From an uncultured Pelagibacteraceae bacterium (GTDB lineage: Bacteria > Pseudomonadota > Alphaproteobacteria > Pelagibacterales > Pelagibacteraceae), in assembly GCA_902614125.1 (NCBI GenBank), contig CACMJW010000001.1, forward strand, positions 1 through 64,000: DNA of 64,000 nt, given 5' to 3'. This document shows, piece after piece, positions 6,087 through 28,170 of the stretch (its first letter is position 1; the number at the start of each line of letters is the position of its first letter). Made by a program: the position numbers and the translations under genes. The notes below the pieces were generated by a model. That model did no database searches and had not been told where the DNA came from. It saw only the letters and a program-made list of their open reading frames with translations.

Positions 6087-6710
6087 ATGGATGCAAAGAT
6101 TTGTGGTGTCAAAGATCCAAAAACCTTAGACTACATAATTAATCATAATTACCCCCCAAAGTTTATTGGGTTTATTGCTAATTATCCAAAATCAAAAAGG
6201 TATTTAGAATTTAACAAACTCAAAAATATTTTAAATGTTGATAAAAAAAATATCAATTTTGTTTGTGTGTTAGTCGATCCTGATAATGAATTGCTTGAAA
6301 AAATAAATAAGTTAAGTTTTGATTATCTCCAACTCTATAAAGTTTCACCAAATAGGACAAAAAAAATAAAAGAAACATATAACATAAAAATAATAACTGC
6401 TCTTACAATCGAAGATATAAATGATGTTTTAATTTATAAACAATATGAGAAAATTTCAGATATAATTTTATTTGATAGTAAAGGTTATGAAAAATCTGTT
6501 GGCTTTAATCATGAACTGCTAAATGAGGTGCCCAAATCAATAAATAAAATGTTAGCTGGCAACATTAAGTATAATGATAAGCTTGATAAATATATTAAAA
6601 TAACAGATATTATTGATATTTCAGGAAGCTTGGAAACCTCTGGAGAAAAAGATATTTCTAAAATAAACATTTTTTTAAATAATATAAAAAAATTAAATAA
6701 TGAAACTTAA
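6087..6710 (+). CDS. trpF: Phosphoribosylanthranilate isomerase (divergent)
   Basis: 207 residues. It isomerises phosphoribosylanthranilate in tryptophan synthesis. The N-terminal KICGVKD carries the catalytic Cys (family KICGxT/xR), FIGFI and LVDP follow the TIM-barrel pattern, and ILFDSKG keeps the catalytic Asp. Several usual motifs are degraded: VQLHG is DYLQLYK, the GGTGxxFDW loop reads YEKSVGFNHE, and the phosphate site reads LAGNIKYND. Position directly before trpB and trpA supports the call. The 3' end overlaps trpB by 11 bases. Confidence 0.85.
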   Translation: MDAKICGVKDPKTLDYIINHNYPPKFIGFIANYPKSKRYLEFNKLKNILNVDKKNINFVCVLVDPDNELLEKINKLSFDYLQLYKVSPNRTKKIKETYNIKIITALTIEDINDVLIYKQYEKISDIILFDSKGYEKSVGFNHELLNEVPKSINKMLAGNIKYNDKLDKYIKITDIIDISGSLETSGEKDISKINIFLNNIKKLNNET

Positions 6711-12956: not shown

Positions 12957-14081
12957 CTATTCCAACATCGGATCATCTCCGCCATCTAATAAATCATCTG
13001 ATAATTCACTATTAGATAGAATTGAAGTGATAATTGAATTTATATTTTTTTTATTGTCCTCAAAATTTAATTTTCTAGTCTTGATTTGGGTAGTGTATGA
13101 TCTTTCATCTTTATCAATCTGCAATCCTTCTTTTCGAAGTCCATTCATTGTTTTTCTATATTGAAGTTTAAATTCGTTGCCGTTTAAATAATTGTAAAGG
13201 TTTTGTAACTTTGAAGTTGCATCCCCTTTGGTTAGTTTATTTTGCTGTATCTGTTCTATTAGTTTTCTGTGTATAGAAACCATTTGTCTTAGTATTGGAA
13301 GTTCTGCACAAATAAGAATTCTTCCTCCTTCTCTCTCCTCAACTAAACCATTTGATTTTTTTGGCATTGCCTTGGTGTAAATAATACCAATTGTTGCATT
13401 CTCATTGGTCATATCATCTAGCAATTTACTTACCCACTTTTCATCAAAGTTTAAAACATCTTTACTTTCATGAAGTATTTTACCAACAGTTTCATTATTT
13501 TTATTTTGAACGAATTGGATTACATCTGCTCCCCTTTTCCCTTTTTTTACAGGTTCAAAATTGTCATAAGGAAACTCTTTCTTTAAATAATCCTCTAATA
13601 TATCTTCTTGGACCTCACCTTTTCTTTCAACAGGTGATTGGCTAGCTGCACGAGCAGCATCTTCTGCTTTAGTTCTTAGTCTCTCAATATCTTTTTGGTG
13701 AGCCAATTTTTGTTTAAGAAGTTGTTCTTTTAAATCAGCATTATCTTTTTGTGCTTTTCTCTCTACTTCTAGTTTTGCTTCTTTAGCTTTATCTTCAGCT
13801 TCTTTTTTAATTCTTTTTATATCTAGATCTGCTTGTTTTTTTGCTTCATCTTTTATCTTTTTTTCTTCCTCTAACTTTATTTTTTTAAGTTGTTTTTCAT
13901 GTTCTAACTGTTGTTTTTCAAGTTTAAGATTAAGTTTTCCCTCAAGCTCTTTTTCTCTTACCTTGGATTTTTCTTGCTCTTCCACTCTTAGTTTCTTTCT
14001 CAGTTCCTCAGTTTCTTGCTTTAAACTTTCTTCAAGAGGAAAGAATTTGTTGCAATGCGGACACTTAATTTGTTGTTTCAC
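12957..14081 (-). CDS. DUF2130 family protein (coiled coil plus RmuC-like nuclease fold)
   Basis: 374 residues. There is an N-terminal CPHC pair (residues 7-10), a long charged coiled coil (about 15-150), and then the DUF2130 core. The core starts GEVQEDILEDYLKKEFP and continues KKGKRGADVIQFV. Asp186 in GADVIQ and the E-x-K at 205-207 (HESKD) fit a PD-(D/E)XK nuclease arrangement, as proposed for this RmuC-related family. The biological role of the family is not established. The start overlaps the end of the large leucine-rich-repeat gene by 17 bases and recJ follows after 11 bases, so the genes look co-transcribed. Confidence 0.85.
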   Translation of the reverse strand: MKQQIKCPHCNKFFPLEESLKQETEELRKKLRVEEQEKSKVREKELEGKLNLKLEKQQLEHEKQLKKIKLEEEKKIKDEAKKQADLDIKRIKKEAEDKAKEAKLEVERKAQKDNADLKEQLLKQKLAHQKDIERLRTKAEDAARAASQSPVERKGEVQEDILEDYLKKEFPYDNFEPVKKGKRGADVIQFVQNKNNETVGKILHESKDVLNFDEKWVSKLLDDMTNENATIGIIYTKAMPKKSNGLVEEREGGRILICAELPILRQMVSIHRKLIEQIQQNKLTKGDATSKLQNLYNYLNGNEFKLQYRKTMNGLRKEGLQIDKDERSYTTQIKTRKLNFEDNKKNINSIITSILSNSELSDDLLDGGDDPMLE

Positions 14082-17000
14082 TTTTTTTCTTTTTTCTTTC
14101 TTTTAATATTTCGTCAATTGTATCACCTGACCAGCTCCATTCGGACCTATAAGGAGTATCAAATTTAATTTCTCTATTTAATTTATCATATTTTTGCTTA
14201 TCTTTTTCATTTAAATCATATTCACTTTTAATTGATTTATCTTTTTTCTGGCATTCTTTTAAAAACTTATCTCTAGGATTTAAAGTAATAGATCTTATAT
14301 ATTGTAAATCTTCAGTATTAATTTTTTTATTTTCTATATTTATTTTTTTTATATTTTTCATTTTTGTTATTGATCTTGGATTTTTAATTTCAAATCCCAT
14401 TTCATCTCTATAATTTTGACTAAAAGTAATATCTGTTAAATTTTTTAATTTACAGAAATGATTGAAATCCAATATAAATGGTCTTGGACTATTTCCTTCT
14501 TTCCATCTTTCTCCTGTTTTTCTAAAGTATATTAGCTTTTCTTTATCGCTAGATTCAAAGTTGTTATTTCTACTAAATCTTAAATTTATTTTTTTAAGAT
14601 TTTTAAACTTTTTGATGATTTTATTTATAGTTTGGTAAGCTAGATGAATTTCACCATCATCGTAATCAGCTCTTAAATTTAAAACTTCAATATTAGGATT
14701 AATATAGGAAATTAATTGCTCACCTTTTACACTCGAATGATCTAGTGGTAATTCAATTTTTAATGATTTTAAATTATTTAAATTTTTCAAAAACTCAAAG
14801 TCCTTATCTCTTACGTTATCATTAATTATTCCATCATCGGATCCCATATCACCAGTTATTATTTTAAAAGATAAATTTATGTGTTCCAGATTTTTTAGAG
14901 TTTTTAAGGGTGGTAAATACTCAGGGTTTAATTCATTCAATTTTAAGAATGTTAATTTAGATAATTTATAAATATCTGTGAAATCAAACTCTGTCGTACA
15001 CCATCTAGAGCTATCATCATTATAGTTAAATAAGCTTTTGAATTCTAAATGTTCTAGAGAAGGTAAATTTTTAAAATTAGAATAATTTTCTGCTTTTTCA
15101 CAATGTCTATCAGTTATGACTAGAGTCTTTAATTCTGGACAATATGGAAAGTCTCTAACCGATCCTACACAAGACTCTAAGATTATTTGTTTAATTTTTG
15201 TAAAATCTATTTTTTCAGATAACTTTTTTAAATCCACATCTCTACCACCTAAAATATTGATAGTTTCCAAGTTTTTAAAATTTATAGATTGAGGTAATGA
15301 AAATACTTCATTTTCTTTCCAAAATTTTTTGTAATGAACGTTGTCATAATCATCAAAGTGATAGTCAACTTTTGCAAAGTAAAAGTAGTGTTTAATGTTT
15401 TTAAAAATTGTTGTTTTTAATTTATCTAGATATTTTTGTTTAACCAAAATTATTGGTTTGTCATAGCTATTTCCCTCGATTTTATCATTTAGAAAGTGAT
15501 AAAATTTTTCATCTGAATAAGTCCAGAAGTCTTCGCTATCAAACATATCGTTTAAAAATTTGCTTTCTTTTATAAACGGCTTCTCTCCATCATAACTAAG
15601 TTTAATTGGTTTAGTGTTTATATTAATTTCAAATGGACTAGGGTCCTCAAACTGTATTCTGCTTAAATATTCAATATCTCTGACGTTTGTAGAGTCGTTC
15701 CATCCACAATTATCGTCAATTACAACTAAAGTATCTACTGCTTCTAATAAGTATTTATCAATTATTTGTTTAACTTCTTTATTTAGTAATTGCTTAAATA
15801 TTAACTTATTACGCGTCTCTTTTTTCTCACTTAAAATTGTAGAATACTCAAACAACAAAATATATTTTGAGATATTTTTAAGATCTTTTAATTCCTCATT
15901 AAGATTTGGAATATCTATAAAAATTTTTAATTTTTTACTTAATTGAAGTAAATCGTTTAAACATCGACAAAATCTTTTGCATTCCCATTCAGACCAAGAT
16001 CCAGCAAGGTCTCCCCAGTCTTCATCGACAATTTTGTTGTCAAATTTAAAAATAATTCTTTTTAATTTTTTGTTATTTGAAACATGTTTTTTAAACGGTT
16101 CTAGAGTATCTCCATACATCATTTCACTTCTAATAAATTGATAGGTTGGATTGATAATTATTTCCTCAGGATTTTGATTAAAAATTTTTTTTAGGTATTC
16201 TTTTTTTTCGTCTGCTAATATTGAAAAATAACCTACAGAAAGTTTATTTTTTTCAGATGAAATTATCTTAGGTCCAGAGTACTCAATTCTACTTATTAAC
16301 TCTAATGAATTAAGACCTTTAAAATTAATTTCTGATTTCTTTATTTTTTTTCCATTAATTAAGAGATTTTTTTTAACTGCTAATGAATTTAAACATTTTG
16401 AAATATAATCAGAATATTCATTTACATTGCCTTGAAATTTAAATCCATGCAAATAAACATCTTTACAATTTTTTGAGTTTTTTATTACTTTCCCAATCTT
16501 TTCAAATGTTCTTAGTCCATATCTATAGCTAAATAAATTCCCATTTGGTTCGTCTTCATCGAAAAGATTATAAAGGTTTATTCTTTCTAAACTTTTAAAT
16601 TTTTCAAAATTTGGAAAATCAAAAATATTTAAAAGATGATAATTTAAGAAATATAAATTTTCGTCGCCATACCCTTGGTGTTCTGGCTTTGCCTCACTAG
16701 TATTTTTTTTCCAATCTTTTCTGAAATCAATTTCAAATAATTTTAGTTTCTTAAAATATAAATTATTAGTTAATTTCTTTTTAGGTAATGACAAGGAACA
16801 GCTATCATCAATTGAAAATTTTATTATATTCTTTAAAGAGTAAAGATTCTTGAAAAAATTTTCACTTTGATCCCTATGGATATCACATGAAATCAATTTT
16901 AAAGTTCTAAGATTTTTTAACTTAGATAGACCATTCCAGTTTTTAATATTTTTTAATCCATGCAATTCTAATTCTTCTACAAAATCAATTTTGCTTAATT

Positions 17001-18363
17001 CGTCTAAATTTTCTGAATTTCGAAGAACGATTTGGTCTAATGATATAGTTTTTGATTTATTTTTTATATGTTCTTTAATAAGAGAGCTCTCTTTTTGTCT
17101 TTTATTAAAAACCAATTTTCCTTTTTGATCCCTGCTTAAATAACAACCTTCAATTCCCTCGACTACAATTTTTACATAATTAAAATCATATTCATCATCA
17201 CTTTTATCTGGATATGTATGTACATAGCAGGGATAATTTCCGTTTTTAATTGGAATTGTAACTGAGTTATCTAAATTTGGTTCTTCTTTAAGTTTAAAAC
17301 CATCGTAAAGAGTTTCTTGAATGTAAGGTAGACCACCTGTTTCAACAGTTAGTTTATTTTCAATCTTTTTCTCTTTTTTTTTTAACTTTTTCCTACCAAA
17401 AGTTGGTAGTTCTAATTCCTGAGGTTCAATATCTCTTATTATTGAAAATATTAGATTTTCAAATTGAGTTTTTCTAATATCGTAAACTTCTTTGAAGTTT
17501 TCTTTAAATAATATTTTTGTTTGTTTTCTTAAAATTTGTAATGCCTTTGGAAGCCTATCTGATAAATAGTTTGCTGAAATTTTTTTATCATTTACTTTTA
17601 CCTCAACAATATCTCTATATCCCAATTCTTCTTCAAGATAGTCTTCGAAAATGTATTTAGTAGGATAGCAAGTATCATCTAATAGATTGCTTAAAAACTC
17701 TACATAAGTTCTATTTCTGTATTCACTTAAATGTACAACTTTATCATCATGAATAGATGAAGTTGCAAACGATGAGGTTTCTGATTTAGCTTCAGCACCA
17801 TATTTAAATTTAAATAATCCAATAGGATAATTATTTTGAAAAATATTTTCTTTTTTAAAATATTTATCATCTAAAGACTCTTTTAAAATATCATGATGTT
17901 CAAATCTGAAATTTCCACCATGGTCAGCAACTGCTATTGCGCCTGAAGTTACTTTCATATCAAAAAGCTTTTCTCTTTTGCTTTTTTTATCAATCTTTCC
18001 TTTAGTGAAAAATTGATCATTCATATCTTCTTTGTTCCAACTCCAGGAAACAAGAGTTTTATGTTTTTCACCCCATGCAAAACTTCCGCCAGATGTTTCA
18101 GCAAATATTTTTCTTACTTTATTATTTTTATCAACTCCTAACCAAACAGGATATGCACCATCTGCACCATTTGAAACTGAAATGGAATTAAATTTTTTTG
18201 AATTCTTTTTTTTTATATCGCTTATAATCTCCTCACAGTAAGTATCAATATGATTTGAAAGGTTATCACAAAGATCAGTTACAACTACTGTAGCACCATC
18301 TACTAAAGTATCTGTGACATGGTAAACGTCCGTGATAGGATATGGATCTTTATTTTTTTTCAT
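14065..18363 (-). CDS. Giant leucine-rich-repeat protein of unknown function
   Basis: 1432 residues, the largest protein in the window. Roughly residues 430-1400 contain irregular leucine-rich repeats, for example LSKLKNLRTLKLISC, LPSLEHLEFKSL, LKTLKNLEHINLSF and LNNLKSLKIELPL. They are separated by longer linkers. The first ~330 residues form a separate globular region with motifs such as SNGADGAYPVWLGVD and SGAIAVADHGG. These faintly recall DUF4241-type proteins; that is a guess. No signal peptide or membrane segment is seen, so it is probably cytoplasmic. LRRs usually bind proteins, which suggests a sensor or scaffold. It is packed between the small membrane protein (3-base gap) and the DUF2130 gene (17-base overlap). 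Confidence 0.85.
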   Translation of the reverse strand: MKKNKDPYPITDVYHVTDTLVDGATVVVTDLCDNLSNHIDTYCEEIISDIKKKNSKKFNSISVSNGADGAYPVWLGVDKNNKVRKIFAETSGGSFAWGEKHKTLVSWSWNKEDMNDQFFTKGKIDKKSKREKLFDMKVTSGAIAVADHGGNFRFEHHDILKESLDDKYFKKENIFQNNYPIGLFKFKYGAEAKSETSSFATSSIHDDKVVHLSEYRNRTYVEFLSNLLDDTCYPTKYIFEDYLEEELGYRDIVEVKVNDKKISANYLSDRLPKALQILRKQTKILFKENFKEVYDIRKTQFENLIFSIIRDIEPQELELPTFGRKKLKKKEKKIENKLTVETGGLPYIQETLYDGFKLKEEPNLDNSVTIPIKNGNYPCYVHTYPDKSDDEYDFNYVKIVVEGIEGCYLSRDQKGKLVFNKRQKESSLIKEHIKNKSKTISLDQIVLRNSENLDELSKIDFVEELELHGLKNIKNWNGLSKLKNLRTLKLISCDIHRDQSENFFKNLYSLKNIIKFSIDDSCSLSLPKKKLTNNLYFKKLKLFEIDFRKDWKKNTSEAKPEHQGYGDENLYFLNYHLLNIFDFPNFEKFKSLERINLYNLFDEDEPNGNLFSYRYGLRTFEKIGKVIKNSKNCKDVYLHGFKFQGNVNEYSDYISKCLNSLAVKKNLLINGKKIKKSEINFKGLNSLELISRIEYSGPKIISSEKNKLSVGYFSILADEKKEYLKKIFNQNPEEIIINPTYQFIRSEMMYGDTLEPFKKHVSNNKKLKRIIFKFDNKIVDEDWGDLAGSWSEWECKRFCRCLNDLLQLSKKLKIFIDIPNLNEELKDLKNISKYILLFEYSTILSEKKETRNKLIFKQLLNKEVKQIIDKYLLEAVDTLVVIDDNCGWNDSTNVRDIEYLSRIQFEDPSPFEININTKPIKLSYDGEKPFIKESKFLNDMFDSEDFWTYSDEKFYHFLNDKIEGNSYDKPIILVKQKYLDKLKTTIFKNIKHYFYFAKVDYHFDDYDNVHYKKFWKENEVFSLPQSINFKNLETINILGGRDVDLKKLSEKIDFTKIKQIILESCVGSVRDFPYCPELKTLVITDRHCEKAENYSNFKNLPSLEHLEFKSLFNYNDDSSRWCTTEFDFTDIYKLSKLTFLKLNELNPEYLPPLKTLKNLEHINLSFKIITGDMGSDDGIINDNVRDKDFEFLKNLNNLKSLKIELPLDHSSVKGEQLISYINPNIEVLNLRADYDDGEIHLAYQTINKIIKKFKNLKKINLRFSRNNNFESSDKEKLIYFRKTGERWKEGNSPRPFILDFNHFCKLKNLTDITFSQNYRDEMGFEIKNPRSITKMKNIKKINIENKKINTEDLQYIRSITLNPRDKFLKECQKKDKSIKSEYDLNEKDKQKYDKLNREIKFDTPYRSEWSWSGDTIDEILKERKKKKSETTN

Positions 18364-18366
18364 ATT

Positions 18367-18813
18367 TTAATGTAAAGTATCATTGTCACTATCTTTTTTT
18401 TTCTCTCCAATAAGATTACCCTCTGTAGGTGCTTGATCCCATTCTTCAAACTCATGAAGCCATTCTTTGTGATTGTTTAAAATTTCTTTAGAAGTTGATT
18501 TTAGGTAGTGTCTGTAAACTGGGTAACTAAATTGAAAAATCATTCTTTGTAAAACCCTGAATAAAAATAAGTAAAAACAGTATCCCATATCTAAAAAGCT
18601 TTTTCTAGAAGCTCGTAAGTAGTTTTCTACCAATTCTTTAGCAAGATTATCCATTTTCCTCGCTTCATCAGCACTTGTTTGAATTTTGTTATTTCTTTTA
18701 GACTTATTAATAAAATTAATTACTTCAGCTTTGTTATTTTTTTTAATTTCTTTTGCAGCTTTTGTTTTAGATTTTTTTCTATTTTTAAATAATTTTAAAA
18801 TCTTTTTAATCAT
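18367..18813 (-). CDS. Small protein with one hydrophobic segment, unknown function
   Basis: 148 residues. The N terminus (about 1-45) is strongly basic, rich in Lys and Asn. There is one hydrophobic stretch near the middle (MGYCFYLFLFRVLQRMIFQF), and an acidic, Trp-containing C terminus (WLHEFEEWDQAP). No family is recognised. It has 2- to 3-base gaps to sbcB upstream and to the giant LRR gene downstream, which argues that it is a real gene translated with them. A membrane anchor or effector is possible but not shown. Confidence 0.7.
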   Translation of the reverse strand: MIKKILKLFKNRKKSKTKAAKEIKKNNKAEVINFINKSKRNNKIQTSADEARKMDNLAKELVENYLRASRKSFLDMGYCFYLFLFRVLQRMIFQFSYPVYRHYLKSTSKEILNNHKEWLHEFEEWDQAPTEGNLIGEKKKDSDNDTLH

Positions 18814-18815
18814 AT

Positions 18816-20255
18816 TTAAGCACTCTCATATTTATCTCTTAAAAATTTATAGTATTTATCTACATCTTCTAAAAAATTTAATTTTTCACCTTCTGACTTA
18901 AATGAAAATAATTCTTTTTTTTCTCTCAAATTATCGATTTCATTTTCTGCTGCTGGAAGTGTAAGCCATTTCTCTTTATTCATAGAAAACAATCTATCTT
19001 TAATTTGTTTTTTTATTTTTTTCTGTGTGGTATCAGGAAGAATTTCTGGAGCTTCATTAAATATTAATTTTTCACCAAAATATTTCATTCTTTGATCTTC
19101 AAATTTCTCCAGCATTGAAAATTTTTCTTTCCAATCTGCTGCATGAAATTTTGGAAATAAAAATTTATCATTATCAGTCGCAAATCCAGTATAGATGCTC
19201 TCCTCTGGTTCTATGTCTTCTTGAGATGATGTTTGCATTTTTTCCTCTGCATTTTCTTTTAAAATATTGCAAACATCCTGAGCAAACTTAGCATTTGATT
19301 TTACCATTTCCGCCCTCTTTCTTAATAATTCAGGACCAATTGCACTATAAGGTTCAACTTTCATTCCATAACTTGCATCAATTATAATTGGCGCTTTGTT
19401 GGATCGGATCGTCCTCAAAAATTTTGGCGTCTTTTGCATTTCTTTTTTAAGTTCTTGATAAGAAAGTTTAAATAATGGTTCCACGTCTATTCTAATGTCT
19501 ACACCCTGGCCCCATTTATAAACTGGATGTATGCAATTGCTTGGATGAAGTGGTGCAATTAAATAAAGTCTGCTACGTGAATAGAAGTATTCATTGATTG
19601 TTAAAATTGTTTCGTTTTTGATTATTTCTTCAACAGATTGCTTGCTGCTCGTTCTTAAGTACTCGTCCCAAAGATTAGTTTGCTTTTCTTTAATCTCTGA
19701 AAGTATTTTACCACAAAGCTCACTATCAAATAAGGCTGAGTGGGCTGCCTCTGTATCATATCCATTCATTCTTCCAAGAGACTCTAATTTCATTGATACA
19801 TTTCCTTTTGCATTTAATTCAGTTTTTAAAATTTCTGGATTAACAGCAAAGGCAGCTCTAACAATATTTAAGGCATCATGTCTGACATTTCCTTTTGTAT
19901 TTGTAATATATGGTTCTCTCAATGTTTTGAAAAATTCTTTCCTGATCACTTCATCGTCAAAATTAATTGAACTGTAGCCTAGGAAAGTTGCAGGAGACCA
20001 TTCTTTGAATTTAGCCTCAATTTGATTAAGCATTTGGTAGTGGCTAAGATTTTGTTTTGTAAGTAAATCAATACTTGAACGGTTTACACATAATGCCGTT
20101 GCTGAAGGAACTCGATCCTGAGGTAGTCTACATCTTGCGCTAAATCTTTCTTTTTCTTTAAAGTTTTCGTCTAAAAGTAATGCACCAATTTCAATTATAG
20201 TTGCATAATTAGTATCAGCACTATCTGTTTCTACGTCCCATATTACATAATTCAT
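18816..20255 (-). CDS. sbcB: Exodeoxyribonuclease I (3'-5' ssDNA exonuclease)
   Basis: 479 residues, the usual length of ExoI. It degrades ssDNA 3' to 5' in mismatch repair and recombination. The DEDDh catalytic set is complete: D7 and E9 in WDVETD, D100 in INFDDE, and H172 and D177 in AHSALFD. The spacing is nearly identical to E. coli ExoI. The SH3-like and C-terminal helical parts follow. The ATG overlaps the rmuC stop by one base (TAATG). Placement between RmuC and an unknown membrane protein in an accessory block is unusual. Confidence 0.92.
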   Translation of the reverse strand: MNYVIWDVETDSADTNYATIIEIGALLLDENFKEKERFSARCRLPQDRVPSATALCVNRSSIDLLTKQNLSHYQMLNQIEAKFKEWSPATFLGYSSINFDDEVIRKEFFKTLREPYITNTKGNVRHDALNIVRAAFAVNPEILKTELNAKGNVSMKLESLGRMNGYDTEAAHSALFDSELCGKILSEIKEKQTNLWDEYLRTSSKQSVEEIIKNETILTINEYFYSRSRLYLIAPLHPSNCIHPVYKWGQGVDIRIDVEPLFKLSYQELKKEMQKTPKFLRTIRSNKAPIIIDASYGMKVEPYSAIGPELLRKRAEMVKSNAKFAQDVCNILKENAEEKMQTSSQEDIEPEESIYTGFATDNDKFLFPKFHAADWKEKFSMLEKFEDQRMKYFGEKLIFNEAPEILPDTTQKKIKKQIKDRLFSMNKEKWLTLPAAENEIDNLREKKELFSFKSEGEKLNFLEDVDKYYKFLRDKYESA

Positions 20256-21151
20256 TATTTCTGCTCTCCTATTTTTTTATTTTCTAAATCAAGATTTTGT
20301 ATTTTCTGTGAAGTATTTGTAATTTTACTTACTGAATTTTTTATATCTAAGATTGTTTCAGAATTTTTATTGTGTCTATTTTCTAAATCTTTAAAACCTT
20401 TTTCAAAAGCATCAATGACTTTTGATAACTCTGAAACTTCTTTTTGTATAACGTGGGTTTGCTCATACATTTCTCTATTTTGAATAAGTAATTTGTAAGT
20501 TCTTAAAAAAGCCCATAGTGTATTTGGTGAAGTAATAATGACATTTTTCTTACGTGCCTCCTTAATAAAATCTTCAGATATATCTTCAATAGCTCTAAAA
20601 ACACCTTCAGAACCAATAAACATAATTGCTAATTGAGCAGTTTCTCCTGTTATAATGTACTTTTCTGATATTGCTTTAATATGATTATTTAAATCTTTTT
20701 GAAATTCTTTAAGATGTTGGTGTTTTTTATCCTCGTCAGTTTCTTTAAAATATTTTTCATAATTATCCCAAACAAACTTAGAATCGATACAAATTTTTTC
20801 ATTTGTTGAATCAAAAGTTAATAAACAGTCTACTCGTTTATTATTTGATAAAGTGTGTTGAAATGAATAGTGCTTTGCAGCTAATGTATCTTTAACAATT
20901 TCTTCTAAATACTCCTCTCCAAGTTTACCTCTTTTAGTCTTATTGTTAAAAATATTTTCAAAATCTATGATTTTTTCGTTTAATTTCTCGATTGCTTGTT
21001 GAGCATTTTCAATATTACCTAGTCTTTCTTTGATATCGCTAAGACCAATTTCATCAGTATTTTCCTTGTTTTTTGAGCCTATTTTTTGATAAATCAAAAA
21101 AGCAAAGATCGCTACAACAGCTAAACCACCAATTATTAAATATTCAAACAT
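20255..21151 (-). CDS. rmuC: RmuC family DNA recombination protein
   Basis: 298 residues, shorter than many RmuC proteins because the coiled coil is brief. An N-terminal membrane anchor (LIIGGLAVVAIFAFLIY) is followed by a short coiled coil. The nuclease-like core begins RGKLGEEYLEEIV, with RVDCLL and ICIDSKF giving the D...DxK pattern of the PD-(D/E)XK superfamily. RmuC limits DNA rearrangements and is thought to be a nuclease. It is the first gene of the block, with a GAGG-type ribosome site just upstream and a structured leader at 21171-21326. Confidence 0.9.
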   Translation of the reverse strand: MFEYLIIGGLAVVAIFAFLIYQKIGSKNKENTDEIGLSDIKERLGNIENAQQAIEKLNEKIIDFENIFNNKTKRGKLGEEYLEEIVKDTLAAKHYSFQHTLSNNKRVDCLLTFDSTNEKICIDSKFVWDNYEKYFKETDEDKKHQHLKEFQKDLNNHIKAISEKYIITGETAQLAIMFIGSEGVFRAIEDISEDFIKEARKKNVIITSPNTLWAFLRTYKLLIQNREMYEQTHVIQKEVSELSKVIDAFEKGFKDLENRHNKNSETILDIKNSVSKITNTSQKIQNLDLENKKIGEQK

Positions 21152-21170
21152 CTTTTCCTCTTTTTTAGTT

Positions 21171-21326
21171 AACGAAGACTAGTTTAAATATGAGCTTAGA
21201 AAGCGAGTAGAAAGGATTAACTCAGGATCTAAACTAGTACCTTCGTTTTAAATAAATCAGGTTGTTTAGATTGAATGAAAAGAAAGGACTAAATCTCACT
21301 AGATCTAAACAAGTACTAATTTATTT
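21171..21326 (-). ncRNA. Candidate structured leader: two tandem related hairpins upstream of rmuC
   Basis: Two long inverted repeats stand side by side. Element 1 has arms 21171-21186 and 21230-21247, with outer stem AACGAAG/CTTCGTT and inner stem ACTAGTTTA/TAAACTAGT. Element 2 has arms 21250-21271 and 21303-21326, with outer stem AAATAAAT/ATTTATTT and inner stem GTTTAGAT/ATCTAAAC. The outer stems differ in sequence yet stay paired, while the loop-side parts are shared: AGAAAGGAyTAA (21209-21220 and 21281-21292) and GATCTAAACwAGTAC (21226-21240 and 21302-21316). Different stems with preserved pairing point to selection on structure. A promoter-like sequence lies just upstream on the minus strand, so the strand is assigned as minus. 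The class is not recognised. Confidence 0.6.
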
Positions 21327-21335
21327 AGTAAAAAA

Positions 21336-21364
21336 ACAATATATTAGTTAGTTTTTAAAGTCAA
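21336..21364 (-). promoter_or_regulatory. Possible sigma70 promoter for the rmuC block
   Basis: On the minus strand TTGACT (21359-21364) is followed after 17 bases by TATTGT (21336-21341). An alternative -10, TATATT, lies two bases closer. Transcription would start near 21329, right before the first hairpin of the leader. The AT-rich background makes chance matches common. Confidence 0.4.
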
Positions 21365-21372
21365 TAAAAAAT

Positions 21373-22056
21373 TTAAATTTTTTTTTGTGAGTAATATTGT
21401 TCAACTCTTTCTAAGAACTTATTTTGATATTCTTTAAGCTCATCACCATAAATTACGAATCTTTGAAAAGTATTATCTTTAGTGCAAACTAATATAACTC
21501 CTTGATTTATATTGGTTCCATAAACAGTATTATGAGCAAGAGAATAAGCCCCCAATTGCATATAATAAGTAGTATTCCATTCATGTTTTCGAGGTTTGTT
21601 TGATTGTTTGAAGTCAATTAGGGTTTCATAATTTTCATAAACACCAATACAATCTGCAGCTCCAGCATATTTTCCTGGATAATATAAGGTTGATTCGCAC
21701 CCCCATATTTCTTGAAGTCTATTTCTCAAACCATTCTCAATTATCTGATCTGCCATCATTCTTTCTCTTGTGTTATCACCTAATAAATCAAGATTAAGTT
21801 TTCCTAACAAGAATTTTTCAATGTAATCATGCATGCTAGACCCACGCTCAGTTGCTTCTCTTGAAATTATATCAGCTTGTTTATGGCCTACTTTATCGCG
21901 CCATCTATTTAAAGAATCTATTTCTTCTTGTGGCTTTGTGGCTGCAAGTATAGTTGTGACAGATGGTAATTTTTCATTATTAACATCATAAAGACGTTTA
22001 CCATTGTAAAGAGCCCTAGTTGAGGTTGGATAATTAAATTTTCTATTCCACTCCAT
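21373..22056 (-). CDS. Phage-type PD-(D/E)XK exonuclease (MGME1/Cas4-like fold)
   Basis: 227 residues. It has the layout of small RecB-like exonucleases found in marine phages: PSVTTILAATKP near the N terminus, RGSSMHDYIE (RGxxxH, His76), then AGAADCIG (D135) and TLIDFKQSNK (D148, K150). A motif QLGAYSLA corresponds to the QxxxY element. Such enzymes process DNA ends in replication and recombination. It stands outside the rmuC block but on the same strand, with a 31-base gap to the unknown gene upstream. This suggests phage or integrated-element origin. The start ATG gives a complete family N terminus. Confidence 0.82.
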   Translation of the reverse strand: MEWNRKFNYPTSTRALYNGKRLYDVNNEKLPSVTTILAATKPQEEIDSLNRWRDKVGHKQADIISREATERGSSMHDYIEKFLLGKLNLDLLGDNTRERMMADQIIENGLRNRLQEIWGCESTLYYPGKYAGAADCIGVYENYETLIDFKQSNKPRKHEWNTTYYMQLGAYSLAHNTVYGTNINQGVILVCTKDNTFQRFVIYGDELKEYQNKFLERVEQYYSQKKI

Positions 22057-23258: not shown

Positions 23259-25691
23259 CTAATTAGACCAAACTTTACTTATAGTTTCTTGTATTTTTGA
23301 ATTGTAAGTTTTAACTAAATTTTTATTTAGTTCAATAATATTTAATTCTTCGTTTATTTTTTTTACAATTTCATTCTGTAAGTTCATATCAATTTTAGGA
23401 AAAGGTATTTTTTTTAATACTTGCACCGAGGAAACATTTTGTATTACTGAACCACTCTGGTCAGTAAAAAATCTATTTTGAATAGGTGGAGATTGTAAAT
23501 AATATTTTAAAAAATAAGGGTCAACTAGTTTATTATTTGGGGTTAATTTTAGTAATGCTTGATTAATTATTCCTTTTTTAAAATTTTTTGGAATTATAGA
23601 AATCTTACCCATTGTACCTGAACAACTTATAATCAGATCATTTTCTTTTACTGCAAATCCTTTCATTTCTTCAAATTTATTTTCATCAATAAAATATCTT
23701 TCTTTTGAATAATCATCATTTATTGCGTGATATTGTTCATAAACTAAATAACCTTTCGTTTTAAATATTTCTTTTTTTAAAGAACCACCAAATGGACCTC
23801 TTTTAAAATTAGCAACTTGATTTAATTCAACCATCTCCCAATTTTGGTCAATATCTATTGAAGGTTTGTGGTTTTCTATAACTTGTCTACATCCTTCAAT
23901 AATTTTTTGATAACCATCTAATTCTCCTGCTATTTGATTCTGCTTTTCGATAGATGGAAATGGAATTTTAATTTTTGAAATTTGTTTTGCTGAAATATGT
24001 TTTACGGTTATTGCGAAAGTATCTTTTTCAATATCTTTAAGGGGTTTTTGAATTAAGTAATAAAGGTACTTTAAATTTAGATTGTCATTTTGTGTTTTGA
24101 TATTACAAACTCTTTGATTTAAAAGCGCTTCTCCACCAGTCCAGATACATCTATTAAATTCACCATCCATTCCGATAAGAAGGCATCCATTATTTACAAT
24201 ATAATCTTTATTGTAATCACCGTTATATTTTGTTTTGGTATTATTTTTTTTAATATCTCTTATTCTAATTAAAGGAAAACCATCTTCTTCATTGAATTTT
24301 TTGGAGTCAAATGCAAAACCCGATTGAATTTTAATATAATTTCCAATTTCTTTAATTTCAAAATTTGAATTATATTCTACTTCATCTAACAAAGGTTTTA
24401 GTTCAAAGTTTTTGTTCCTAAGTAAATCTTTTTTATTAATAGTATTAATTAGATTTTTTTTATCATTAAAAAAACAATTAATTCCCTCTAAGGCGTTTGG
24501 TAAATCATTTTTGGATATTTCTTTTCTATTTGAACCTAAATCAAAACCATCATGTTTGACTTCATAATAAAAAATACTTTTACTTAATTTTGAATTCTCT
24601 TTATCTAAGATTAGTATTGATGTTTTTACACCAGAATAAGGATTAAACACACCTGCCGGTAAAGAGACAACACCAACAAGAGATGTTTCAATAAGTTTTT
24701 TTCTTAATTGTTTATAAGCATTTCCAGTTTGAAATATAATTCCTTCAGGAACAATGATGCCTGCACGACCTTTGGGTTTTAAATGTTCATTAATGTAATC
24801 AATAAACAAAACTTCTGCTTTTGTCGATTTAACTCCAAATCTGTTGTGAGGAGTTATTCCTCCTTTAGGAGAAAAGAACGGTGGATTTGCAAGTATTACA
24901 TCATAGTATTCATTCCACCTTTCTTCACTTGAAAGTGTATCGTACTCATTAATTTTTGGATTAGTAAATTTGTGTAAGTACATATTTACCAAAGACATTT
25001 TCACCATATCGGGAGAAATGTCATAACCATTTAAGTTTTCACCAATTTTTTTTCTATCTGACGCATTAAGACCATCACCTAAATTTTTCTTAGTATTTTG
25101 TTTTAAGATATGTTTGTAAGAACTAATTAAAAATCCTGCAGTACCGCAAGCAGGGTCTAATACAGTCTCATTTTTTTGTGGATTTACTATTTCAGTTATA
25201 AAATCAATAATGTGTCTTGGTGTTCTGAATTGACCTGCATCACCTTGTGAACCCATAAAAGACAATAAGTATTCAAATGCATCACCTAGTTTTTCAGAAT
25301 TCGAATAATGAAATTCATTAATTTCTTTTAAAAACATATTAAGTGTTGATGGGTCTTTAAATGGTAGAAATGAGTTTTTAAATATCTCTCTAAATAACTC
25401 AGGTAGATTTTCATTAGTATACATTTGTTCAACCGCATCTTCGTAAAGTTTAACTTTTTCAACACCACTTGTTTTAGTGTCCATTAAATTCCTCCAAGAG
25501 TACTTTTGAAATTTACCTGAGAAGTAAGTTGATTTGCCGCCCATTGATACAGATTGTTCATCCATATCATTCATAAACTTATAAATTAGACCATTTGTGA
25601 TTTGTTCAACTTGTGCTTTTGGGTCTGGCAACTTTCCAACTAATATTTGTCTTAAAGTATTAATTCTTTTTTTGGTTACATCATCAAGCAT
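23259..25691 (-). CDS. Type I restriction-modification HsdM-HsdS fusion (N6-adenine methyltransferase plus specificity)
   Basis: 810 residues. Residues about 1-430 are HsdM: an N-terminal helical domain, SAM motif I VLDPACGTAGF (177-187) and the N6-adenine motif ANPPF (268-272). About 445-800 resembles HsdS, with two target-recognition domains. The first begins IKIQSGFAFDSKKF and ends SIEKQNQIAGELDGYQ; the second begins ANFKRGPFGGSL and ends MNLQNEIVKKINEE, each followed by a helical spacer. So methylation and sequence recognition are in one chain. Its start overlaps the hsdR end by 8 bases. Confidence 0.92.
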   Translation of the reverse strand: MLDDVTKKRINTLRQILVGKLPDPKAQVEQITNGLIYKFMNDMDEQSVSMGGKSTYFSGKFQKYSWRNLMDTKTSGVEKVKLYEDAVEQMYTNENLPELFREIFKNSFLPFKDPSTLNMFLKEINEFHYSNSEKLGDAFEYLLSFMGSQGDAGQFRTPRHIIDFITEIVNPQKNETVLDPACGTAGFLISSYKHILKQNTKKNLGDGLNASDRKKIGENLNGYDISPDMVKMSLVNMYLHKFTNPKINEYDTLSSEERWNEYYDVILANPPFFSPKGGITPHNRFGVKSTKAEVLFIDYINEHLKPKGRAGIIVPEGIIFQTGNAYKQLRKKLIETSLVGVVSLPAGVFNPYSGVKTSILILDKENSKLSKSIFYYEVKHDGFDLGSNRKEISKNDLPNALEGINCFFNDKKNLINTINKKDLLRNKNFELKPLLDEVEYNSNFEIKEIGNYIKIQSGFAFDSKKFNEEDGFPLIRIRDIKKNNTKTKYNGDYNKDYIVNNGCLLIGMDGEFNRCIWTGGEALLNQRVCNIKTQNDNLNLKYLYYLIQKPLKDIEKDTFAITVKHISAKQISKIKIPFPSIEKQNQIAGELDGYQKIIEGCRQVIENHKPSIDIDQNWEMVELNQVANFKRGPFGGSLKKEIFKTKGYLVYEQYHAINDDYSKERYFIDENKFEEMKGFAVKENDLIISCSGTMGKISIIPKNFKKGIINQALLKLTPNNKLVDPYFLKYYLQSPPIQNRFFTDQSGSVIQNVSSVQVLKKIPFPKIDMNLQNEIVKKINEELNIIELNKNLVKTYNSKIQETISKVWSN

Positions 25692-28170
25692 TAATAAATC
25701 TTTCTAAATTAATATTTTCTTTAATATAGGTTGGTATCTTATTTCTTAAATCTTCTGGCAATTTAAAGAAGTAATCTCCTGATGGATGAACATTTAGTTC
25801 TGCATATTTGCCACTATCAACTTTATCTCTAAAATCTTTATCAGTCGCATATGCTTCAAAGACTTGTTTAACTGCATTAAATGAACTTTCATCTGGTTTA
25901 AATTTATCATCAAATTTCTCAAACTCTTCTTCTAGTATTTCATCTTTTCTCTTTAAGTTTGAAATGTAACCAAAAGTATATAAAAGAAGTTCTTTAATTG
26001 TGATATTAACATCAAGTCCTAACGCTTCTCTTAATCTTTCAAGTGAATATGATTTTTTAAGATACTTTTCTTTAAAGTATTCTTCTGCATCATTAAAATT
26101 CTGATTTTCAATCATTTGTTTGAGAGAATTAAATGATTGTTTATCTTTAAAAAATTCTTCTTTAAAAGATTTATATAAATCTCTATCAATTCTCATACCT
26201 ACCTGAGGAATGTTTATTTCTTCTGTCTTTTGAACAGGGTCAACTTTTTTATTAAAAACTTCATCTACTTTTTTTGGATCAATAGGGGGGTTACCATCAG
26301 AACCTTCAGAAGGTAATTTTAATTTCTGGTCATAATCAAATTCTTCTTCGAAATATTGATAGTTTTTAAAGTAATCAAAAAGTTTAAATGAGGACTTAAT
26401 AGAATTAACTGTCTTTGGTATTTCTTTCTGATCTATCCAACATTCTTTAAAATCAAATAATCTTGTTCCTCTTCCTTTCATCTGAATAAATTCTGTTGGT
26501 GAAAACACTGGTCTGAATAAACAAATATTTAATAAGTCTTTACAATCATACCCTGTAGTCATCATTCCAACTGTTACACACACTCTTGCTTTTGATGTTT
26601 TGTAAAGTTCATTTAATGGTGAATTTCCATTTAAATTATTGTTTTTAAAATCAATGGTCATTTGTTGTGGGTCAGGACTAGTAACACTTGATGTAACTTG
26701 AATTGCAAAGTCTGATTGATATTGATTAGGAAAGTATTTCTCAGCAAGTTCATTTAAAATTGTTGTAATCTTAACTGCGTGTTTTTGTGAAACACAAAAT
26801 ACTAAAGTCTTTCCAATTTCATTTGTGTATGGGTCTCTTAAAGCATTTTGAATAAATGCATTACAAAATGATAAATTTGTTTCATCAGATTTAAATTTTC
26901 TTTCAAAATCTTTTTTAAAGAATGTTTGTTCATCTACATCTTTACCTTCTGCATCTACTCCCTTGAAAGTTAAACCTTCTTTACTCATAATGTCTGCTGA
27001 CAGACCTGTTTCTACATCAACAACAGTAGGATTAATTAAGAAACCATCTTCAACACCGTTGAGTAATGAATATCTGAATGTTGGTTCACCATCATCACAT
27101 CCAAAAATAGAATAAGTATCTAACATCAATCTTCTTTCAAGTTCTTTAGGGTCAGTCATAGACATATCGTCTTCATTAACTGACTTTAAAAAATCTCTTG
27201 GTGTTGCTGTAAGACCTAACTTAAATCCAATAAAGTATTCAAAAACATTTCTACTACTTGCACCTAAACTTCTATGTGCTTCATCTGATATTACTAAATC
27301 AAAACTATTGGGTTTAAATATTCTTTTATACTTGTTATTTTTTGTAAATGATTGAACAGTAGAGATTACGATATTTGCCCTTCTCCAGTCGTCTTTATTT
27401 TCTTTCCAAATTGCTGTTTCAAAATCATTTGAAAGAATGTCATTTATTTCCTTCTTTGCCTGCGTTTCTAATTCAAGTCTATCTACTAAAAATAAAACTC
27501 TATTTACTTTATATAATCTTAAAAACATTTTGATGATAGCAGCAGAGGTTGTTGTTTTACCTGTACCTGTTGCCATCTCTAGTAAAAATCTATCACCGCC
27601 TTTTTTTATTTTTGATTGAATTGCTTTGATTGCATCTAATTGATATTTTCTCAAAAATCTTAAATTATTCTTTTTAAGAAACTCTTTTCTTTTATCCTCA
27701 TTTTTAAAATCAGGACTATCTTTGAATTGTGGAAATTGAGTTAGTGCTAAATAATCTTCATCAATTCCATTATCTTCATCTTCATCTCTTGGTGGATTAA
27801 ATGTAGTTTTCATCTCTAAATCTTCTTGAGATGGAAACTTCTCAATTTTTACAGGATTACCTTGTTCTAAATCCCAGAGATAATGAAGAAGACCATTTGA
27901 TAAAATTATAAATCTACAATTTAATGATTTTGCATAACCTCTTGCTTGTTCTTTACCAACAAGAGGTGAGAGTAAAGTTTTCTTCGCTTCAACTGTACAA
28001 AGATGATTTTCTTTTGAACTTAATAAAACATAATCTGCTTCACCAGACTTATTATCTATTTCTGTTTTGACATTGATTTCTTCATCTTTAGACCAACCTG
28101 GCAGTTTCCAACCTGCCTCAATTAGCATTTTATCTATTCGTATTCTTGCATCAGGTTCTTTTGAAGACAT
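25684..28170 (-). CDS. hsdR: Type I restriction enzyme R subunit (HsdR)
   Basis: 828 residues. An N-terminal nuclease domain contains GEADYVLL and CTVEAKK (the D...ExK set). A superfamily 2 motor follows, with Walker A MATGTGKTTTSA, the helicase box SDEAHRS and FIQMKGRGTRL (motif VI). The C-terminal part is of the EcoEI R type. It translocates DNA and cuts unmodified DNA when joined to the M/S protein. The opening MSSKEPDARIRIDKMLIEAG fits the family N terminus. Directly upstream lies an inverted repeat (28172-28189) and no obvious ribosome site. Confidence 0.94.
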   Translation of the reverse strand: MSSKEPDARIRIDKMLIEAGWKLPGWSKDEEINVKTEIDNKSGEADYVLLSSKENHLCTVEAKKTLLSPLVGKEQARGYAKSLNCRFIILSNGLLHYLWDLEQGNPVKIEKFPSQEDLEMKTTFNPPRDEDEDNGIDEDYLALTQFPQFKDSPDFKNEDKRKEFLKKNNLRFLRKYQLDAIKAIQSKIKKGGDRFLLEMATGTGKTTTSAAIIKMFLRLYKVNRVLFLVDRLELETQAKKEINDILSNDFETAIWKENKDDWRRANIVISTVQSFTKNNKYKRIFKPNSFDLVISDEAHRSLGASSRNVFEYFIGFKLGLTATPRDFLKSVNEDDMSMTDPKELERRLMLDTYSIFGCDDGEPTFRYSLLNGVEDGFLINPTVVDVETGLSADIMSKEGLTFKGVDAEGKDVDEQTFFKKDFERKFKSDETNLSFCNAFIQNALRDPYTNEIGKTLVFCVSQKHAVKITTILNELAEKYFPNQYQSDFAIQVTSSVTSPDPQQMTIDFKNNNLNGNSPLNELYKTSKARVCVTVGMMTTGYDCKDLLNICLFRPVFSPTEFIQMKGRGTRLFDFKECWIDQKEIPKTVNSIKSSFKLFDYFKNYQYFEEEFDYDQKLKLPSEGSDGNPPIDPKKVDEVFNKKVDPVQKTEEINIPQVGMRIDRDLYKSFKEEFFKDKQSFNSLKQMIENQNFNDAEEYFKEKYLKKSYSLERLREALGLDVNITIKELLLYTFGYISNLKRKDEILEEEFEKFDDKFKPDESSFNAVKQVFEAYATDKDFRDKVDSGKYAELNVHPSGDYFFKLPEDLRNKIPTYIKENINLERFINA

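Follow-up and report, generated by a model that had tools for sequence, protein, structure and literature searches.

The pair of adjacent hairpins on the minus strand of the window, by which we mean the whole stretch of 64,000 nucleotides analyzed from an uncultured Pelagibacteraceae bacterium (source genome of 1.18 Mb, 81% complete), is, as judged by sequence comparison, the doubled form of an element of sbcB, and the doubling is a feature of the clade of the window. The element belongs mainly to sbcB, the gene for exonuclease I, where it occurs mostly in single copy. What matters most in it is not the loop but the 5' strand of the hairpin, 17 nt in length, and comparison with viral sequences identifies this strand as a hairpin motif shared with phages. 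On balance, we favor the interpretation that the element is a two-state cis-regulatory RNA with a recognizable tip, which would be read by a putative factor and which was doubled in the window's clade. SAR11 cells have few regulators and little spacer DNA, and a conserved hairpin before a DNA repair exonuclease gene therefore likely earns its place.

Tandem hairpins in the window and in related genomes

The features of the window that bear on the element are the following, in the order in which they are read on the minus strand.

21373..22056, minus strand: PD-(D/E)XK exonuclease gene, which ends just before the element (phrog_298 exonuclease, 4.5e-49)
21336..21364, minus strand: promoter-like sequence TTGACT-17-TATTGT, with the same spacing in 12/12 tandem loci
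21249..21327, minus strand: hairpin 1, the long hairpin (state B), supported by its fold and by strand swaps (1/40,320 as good)
21301..21317, minus strand: copy 1 of the 17-nt motif, AGUACUUGUUUAGAUCU, which forms the motif hairpin (state A)
21281..21288, minus strand: UCCUUUCU in hairpin 1, found in 2/12 tandem loci
21171..21247, minus strand: hairpin 2, the long hairpin (state B), supported by its fold and by strand swaps (56/40,320 as good)
21225..21241, minus strand: copy 2 of the 17-nt motif, GGUACUAGUUUAGAUCC
21209..21216, minus strand: UCCUUUCU in hairpin 2, a potential pairing partner of the ribosome site of rmuC; 4/12 tandem loci
21156..21160, minus strand: likely ribosome site of rmuC, GAGGA, predicted from the sequence
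20255..21151, minus strand: rmuC, the first gene after the element (Pfam RmuC, 5.6e-48)
18816..20255, minus strand: gene for an sbcB-like exonuclease I, the gene normally preceded by the element (Pfam Exonuc_X-T_C, 5.9e-17)

The sbcB-like protein also matched the NCBIfam exodeoxyribonuclease I model (1e-44), under the cut-off of that model. Both adjacent inverted repeats that had been proposed by the initial annotation are present. Hairpin 1 (minus strand, 21327-21249) folds with -25.0 kcal/mol (z of -7.8) and hairpin 2 (minus strand, 21247-21171) with -22.6 kcal/mol (z of -4.8), and 0 of 200 shuffles were as good in either case. The corresponding plus-strand folds were weaker (z of -3.0 for hairpin 1 and -2.4 for hairpin 2), and for the whole spacer z was -5.1 on the minus strand versus -1.2 on the plus strand. 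The two blocks that had been seen in both copies were recovered, namely, GATCTAAACwAGTAC at 21302-21316 and 21226-21240 and AGAAAGGAyTAA at 21281-21292 and 21209-21220, and the asymmetric bulge on the GUAC side appears in both folds. The promoter-like sequence TTGACT-17-TATTGT lies at 21364-21336 as annotated, and its geometry is kept in all 12 tandem loci, but its frequency in the window corresponds to chance (5 such sites found versus 4.0 expected). No terminator-like site was found in 20900-21700. A search of the window against Rfam 15 returned 4 tRNAs only at the gathering score, and lax thresholds gave nothing credible.

When 201 genomes of the genus were searched at the DNA level, clear copies turned up in G118, G071, G059, G012, and G053, whereas G135 gave a shorter match; further scans brought the total to 12 tandem loci. 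In these loci, the two copies of the 17-nt motif are 72 to 79 nt apart, and a sequence of the form TTGA[CT][AT]-N17-TA ends 17 to 19 nt ahead of the first motif in every case. The gene directly downstream is rmuC in 4 loci, sbcB in 5, and an ORF of ~102 amino acids in 3. Since MAFFT did not align all of the 3' strands, pairing was assessed by strand swaps, which need no alignment: each 5' half was paired with the 3' halves of other groups, defined by 80% identity for the single-copy leaders and by hand for the tandem loci. The 8 groups of tandem loci allow 40,320 arrangements, and those as good as the native one numbered 1 in the case of hairpin 1 and 56 in that of hairpin 2. The claim that the stems change in sequence and yet remain paired thus holds beyond chance across the 12 tandem loci, and the relatives of the window keep the pairing. 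Tests on parts of the hairpins were weaker and gave no clear win (864/40,320 swaps as good for the motif of hairpin 1 alone against the downstream strand; 2,582/40,320 for the flank of hairpin 2 alone). The z value of the sense strand was lower than that of the antisense strand in 12/12 tandem loci for hairpin 2 and in 8/12 for hairpin 1. The outer stem of hairpin 2 is lost in L167, L312, and L363; inspection by eye indicates that the second hairpin of these three loci could instead form an H-type pseudoknot (GUUUAG/CUAAAU and GAGUU/AACUC).

In a tree of the neighboring protein (115 columns), which assumes that the leader shares the history of that protein, the 9 of 12 tandem loci that could be placed form one group (support of 100/99). 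In one genome, G073 (locus L167), an operon of ORF, rmuC, and PD-(D/E)XK gene is preceded by the tandem form and sbcB by the single form; this locus carries three motif copies, at 6407, 6479, and 8647.

The loop fared differently from the stems. Although UCCUUUCU is shared by both hairpins of the window, it is not general, being found in 4/12 tandem loci for hairpin 2 and in 2/12 for hairpin 1. The pairing of TCCTTTCT with the ribosome site of rmuC, which had been suggested as a function, is possible in 4/12 tandem loci but cannot be the general function of the element. TCCTTTCT is present in hairpin 2 of exactly those 4 of the 12 loci that have rmuC directly downstream, and in these loci the ribosome site, GAGGA or AAGGA, is able to pair with the first five bases of UCCUUUCU; this agreement is suggestive only, as the four loci form two related pairs.

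A number of observations were made on the genes around the element. (i) A 148-amino-acid protein at 18367-18813 of the window has no Pfam match, and its relatives follow sbcB in 6 of 10 loci compared. (ii) A 1,432-amino-acid protein at 14065-18363 of the window has a weak leucine-rich-repeat match, and its cluster comprises 5 ORFs of the loci compared. (iii) The defense genes beside the PD-(D/E)XK gene differ among tandem loci: type I restriction genes in the window (23259-28170), DrmA/DrmB and a methyl-directed restriction enzyme in L173 (9698-16349), matches to PbeA/PbeC in L172 (11978-16216), and a type II methyltransferase and a helicase in L171 (2189-8475).

The single-copy element before sbcB

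The most constant part of the element is the 5' strand of each hairpin, which reads GCUACUUGUUUAGAUGC in most relatives and AGUACUUGUUUAGAUCU or GGUACUAGUUUAGAUCC in the window. An exact scan of GTDB genomes with GCTACTYGTTTAGAYGC gave at least 120 stretches. Among the matches listed, 107 were at the PD-(D/E)XK/sbcB locus, all 107 of them titled Pelagibacterales. Of these listed matches, 91 were directly before sbcB (88 by ORF scan and 3 by tblastn), 8 were before rmuC, 3 were before the ~102-amino-acid ORF, and 5 were cut by contig ends. The PD-(D/E)XK gene was upstream in 100 of the 107, and in these 100 listed SAR11 loci the distance from its stop codon to the hairpin had a median of 42 nt (quartiles, 42 and 42; range, 39 to 226). 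The 13 listed matches outside the locus were taken as chance: none was titled SAR11, none had a relative of the seven marker proteins, and their flanks paired over 0 to 3 bases. A same-strand position just before one gene or operon (107 of at least 120 at the locus, 91 before sbcB) is what is expected of a leader. The initial annotation had proposed a structured leader of the nuclease block; the minus-strand structure and the promoter-like box ahead of it agree with this proposal, but the element is mainly that of sbcB and not of rmuC.

The gene sbcB was present in 131 of 151 genomes of the genus and in 22/22 of those of high quality. The sequence upstream of it was covered for 110 of the 131 genomes (30 loci and 80 regions fetched; the other 21 were left out). 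The 80 regions, which were fetched blind to the motif, fell into two classes, 31 with at most 3 mismatches and 49 with at least 6, with none in between. In the motif-free regions that were read, the PD-(D/E)XK gene or another upstream gene stops within a few bases of sbcB. Motif copies were collected from 97 upstream regions, namely, the 80 fetched and 17 chosen from earlier loci, of which 46 had the motif (45 distinct); the collecting pattern let paired positions vary independently, and the blind check of the 80 regions repeats the result without the pattern. A sample of the family was scanned for common forms of the motif with a pattern that misses the window-type motif; 11 of 27 genomes of the window's genus carried such a form, compared with 1 of 120 genomes of other genera.

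In the single-copy leaders, the motif together with 6 flanking bases pairs with a downstream strand that stops shortly before the ribosome site, and only 4 of 20,000 swaps were as good (14 groups). The same test with the motif alone was uninformative because the motif hardly varies (2,819 of 20,000 swaps as good). RNAalifold of 26 single leaders returned the same pairs (-2.97 kcal/mol), and of these 11 pairs, 1 had changes on both sides. The preservation of structure by compensatory change, a further mark of a leader, is seen in the strand swaps, in hairpin A, and in the phage copies; it is weak in this alignment. The mean z of the single leaders was modest (-2.16 in sense versus -1.60 in antisense; 60 of 117 sampled), and two single-copy SAR11 leaders folded whole were no better than shuffles (z of -0.8 and -0.1). 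An outer helix around the motif, ACUAA/UUAGU, was discarded, as 5,548 of 20,000 strand swaps were as good.

By eye, the box upstream of single leaders reads CTTGACTTT and is followed ~16 nt on by TAAAAG or TAGAAG, with no TATAAT-like box. In these leaders, the TTGAC box and the stop codon of the PD-(D/E)XK gene frequently overlap, which confounds the conservation of the box. A short frame starts at an AUG within the motif in 112 of 117 single leaders, L220 being one example, and in L288 and L314 it is the frame of sbcB.

The motif hairpin and its phage copies

The 17-nt motif can form a small hairpin of its own, with the shape stem, UA/AU internal loop, CU/AG, and UGUUU loop. Several lines of evidence argue for this hairpin A. 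(i) Its four nested pairs (positions 0-16, 1-15, 4-12, and 5-11) hold in 60/60 cells of 15 motif variants, and 3 of the 4 pairs are changed on both sides. (ii) Its covariation score is 0.467, compared with 0.000 to 0.124 when the partners are slid; of the five measures set against 500 column shuffles, two were less decisive, with 34 and 194 shuffles doing as well. (iii) The paired change from C-G to A-U at positions 4/12 amounts to 3 changes on the tree of the neighboring gene, of which at least 2 are forced by well-supported branches, either as two gains or as a gain and a paired reversal. Invariant among the 15 variants are U2, A3, U5, G7-U10, A11, and A13. The SAR11 form consists of just two 2-bp stems without G-U pairs. 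Hairpin A and the long hairpin B share bases and are therefore mutually exclusive. Mimicry of a tRNA anticodon arm (17 nt with a 7-nt loop) was dropped under the rules for such arms, which call for U33: the equivalent position is U, C, or A.

The exact motif was found in 36 viral stretches. In 17 of these, it lies inside reading frames of 181 to 933 codons; 4 of the 17 have 5 flank pairs and are copies of one gene. The other 19 matches are outside long frames and in hairpins, their flanks pairing over 4 to 13 further bases that are mostly GC-rich, such as TGGCGG/CCGCCA, GTGGCG/CGCCAC, CTGGGG/CCCCAG, and GGTCGGTT/AGCCGACT. At least 4 flank pairs were present in 23 of the 36 viral matches versus 726 of 30,400 sites drawn at random from these contigs. 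These phage hairpins share with the SAR11 motif a tip of 13 nt. For a comparative analysis we used 15 loci (11 distinct rows), comprising 14 distinct loci of the 19 and L114, which came from a scan with a 14-base pattern (at least 120 stretches) and in which C-G replaces G-C at 0/16. In this set, 8 of 12 pairs are changed on both sides, 93.2% of the cells are paired, and the covariation score is 0.480, compared with at most 0.112 when slid. Nine phage pieces folded without guidance all gave the same succession of stem, UA/AU, CU/AG, and UGUUU. Since the phage hairpins were gathered by the exact 13-nt core, the constancy of the core in this set is by selection; when positions 4, 6, and 12 were freed and one position was allowed to be C or T, 10/10 matches, all already collected, still had the common bases C, U, and G; these matches came from two stem contexts. 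A stem that varies beneath 13 constant top bases is the mark of something recognized.

A short ORF on the same strand stops 16 to 25 nt before the core in 13 of the 15 phage loci, and the other two stretches begin too near for it to be seen. In 8 of these 13 (L437, L432, L106, L114, L420, L428, L150, and L425), its product ends in [DE][MIL]PF, which resembles the tail of Escherichia coli SSB, the part of that protein that recruits and docks exonuclease I. The short protein of L106, whose stretch also encodes a large terminase, had no PHROG or Pfam match. The L437 stretch also encodes a relative of the window's PD-(D/E)XK protein with 52% identity. Rfam gave 0 matches for 12 phage loci, and BLAST searches with the phage hairpins in annotated phages returned short, weak matches only (best listed E value, 0.08), so that no named phage is known to carry the hairpin. 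The window-type form was also searched in viruses: a 15-mer occurred in 100 stretches, of which 60 distinct contexts were read and taken as chance (at most 4 flank pairs), and a 20-mer had 0 matches.

Possible functions and known systems

The position and strand of the element, its conservation, the pairing of A and B under sequence change, and the phage copies of A all come from sequence comparison, which is consistent with the following scheme. The element is preceded by a promoter-like box and followed by the start of sbcB or of the operon with rmuC/sbcB. In state A, the small motif hairpin would form, its tip presumably held by an RNA-binding protein or a small ligand; in state B, the motif would pair with the downstream strand, the end of which is a short way ahead of the ribosome site. 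State B would repress, and binding to A would free the downstream strand and permit translation, so that nuclease output would track a cellular signal. We infer the transcription start and the switching, and we guess at the direction of control and the factor. Two copies may sharpen or steepen the response, as doubling does in tandem riboswitches. A riboswitch would have a binding domain and a mutually exclusive alternative structure; A and B use the same nucleotides, no terminator-like site was found, and sequestration of the ribosome site is not clear. We count against the two-state interpretation that the phage hairpin follows a gene and does not clearly lead one.

The first rival is a transcription element of the put or boxB antitermination type, because the hairpin closely follows a stop codon both in SAR11 and in phages (median of 42 nt in SAR11; 16 to 25 nt in 13/15 phage loci). 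The target of the tip would then be RNA polymerase or a step that takes place between genes (termination, pausing, or processing), and the tandem hairpins with constant tips do resemble HK022 put. Yet the upstream gene and sbcB abut in the motif-free genomes that were read, leaving no obvious termination problem, and window-type loci place a promoter box just before the element; we regard this explanation as fairly unlikely.

Alternatively, the 17-bp motif might be a DNA operator, its imperfect dyad serving as the binding site of a repressor that acts as a dimer on the nuclease block. The changes in hairpin A are symmetric and Watson-Crick in 60/60 cells, as a dyad would have them; both copies changed together at positions 1/15 in the window's clade, and the motif begins 17 to 19 nt past the -10 box. 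Such an operator does not explain why none of the 15 variants departs from the center GUUU or from the asymmetric UA/A positions or why the downstream strand covaries. Moreover, in phages the core tops covarying stems that continue for as many as 13 pairs; since a 17-bp operator needs no such stems, we consider this explanation unlikely.

A stand-alone small RNA or RNA sponge, the other role that the initial annotation had envisaged, would account for the element's own promoter-like box and its tandem hairpins. It is very unlikely, as no terminator-like site lies in 20900-21700, the hairpins stop ~15 to 31 nt before the start codon, and the element is just before a gene start in all 102 of the 107 listed matches whose downstream gene is resolved. 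A sponge of the CsrA type was rejected: the GGA loops are on the plus strand only, which folds worse, and no CsrA was found in the genome (81% complete).

Attenuation by an upstream ORF that starts at the AUG within the motif is highly improbable. The AUG is at motif positions 13 to 15 in 112/117 single leaders, with frames of 17 codons in 36 and of 4 codons in 37, but neither length nor frame is conserved, and the triplet is AUC in both copies of four window-type loci and ACG in 5/117 single leaders. The differing defense genes beside the cassette and the three motif copies in one locus might point to a site at which a mobile island recombines or integrates; this explanation is barely credible, given that the element also occurs in the island-free loci L170 and L174 and has the same orientation before a gene start wherever resolved.

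The element, a two-state cis-regulatory RNA in our preferred interpretation, has known counterparts in kind. The phage elements lambda boxB and HK022 put are small hairpins that have constant tips and lie in non-coding phage RNA near gene starts, those of put being in tandem; the element is like them in these respects but appears to differ in sequence and tip, any antitermination protein for it is putative, and Rfam gave no match for the phage loci. In autogenous control of the T4 gp32 type, the mRNA leader of a DNA metabolism gene carries a structured binding site, a situation similar to that of the element, for which the partner is putative. The alphaproteobacterial cuckoo/CcsR RNAs have two stem-loops with pyrimidine-rich CCUCCUCCC loops and act in trans; both they and the element are double stem-loops with pyrimidine-rich loops, but here the loop is not conserved (4/12 tandem loci). 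Tandem riboswitches such as SAM-II/SAM-V resemble the element in having two domains in one leader and differ in that any ligand of the element is putative.

The RNA element is apparently without an earlier description: the kind of hairpin is known, and what the sequences suggest is a cis-acting form in a bacterium with a tip shared with phages. Structured elements in Pelagibacter spacers, several of them cis-regulatory, were found by comparison in Meyer et al. 2009 (PMC2704228); the elements in its main text belong to genes other than those studied here, and sbcB and rmuC are absent from that text. A table in the same article (PMC2704228) has an exonuclease gene, SAR11_1165, without a motif, which may or may not be the present sbcB. 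Candidate leaders found only in SAR11, upstream ORFs, and protein-binding sites are described for strain HIMB5 in Stav et al. 2019 (PMC6429828); its main text mentions no sbcB, rmuC, nuclease, or exonuclease, and its additional lists may hold the element. A literature search pairing Pelagibacter with sbcB found nothing, and wider searches gave no relevant title.

That phages have the identical 13-nt tip on unrelated stems argues for a single factor that both host and phage read. We give a small chance to the idea that phages tap the host factor that would read the tip to control exonuclease I, the protein tail holding the nuclease and the RNA acting as a decoy for its control. If this idea is true, the element in the bacterium would be a switch RNA of a new type for DNA exonucleases, doubled in the window's clade. 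One shared factor would amount to a testable host-phage control over DNA-degrading enzymes. In L437 (6150-6511, minus strand), L420, L425, and L417, the phage hairpin is followed by 200 to 300 non-coding bases that have no Rfam match and look like a larger structured phage RNA. These stretches contain further long inverted repeats, CTGATCCCTG...CTGGGATCAG, and some of them have a TTGACA-like box before the next gene.
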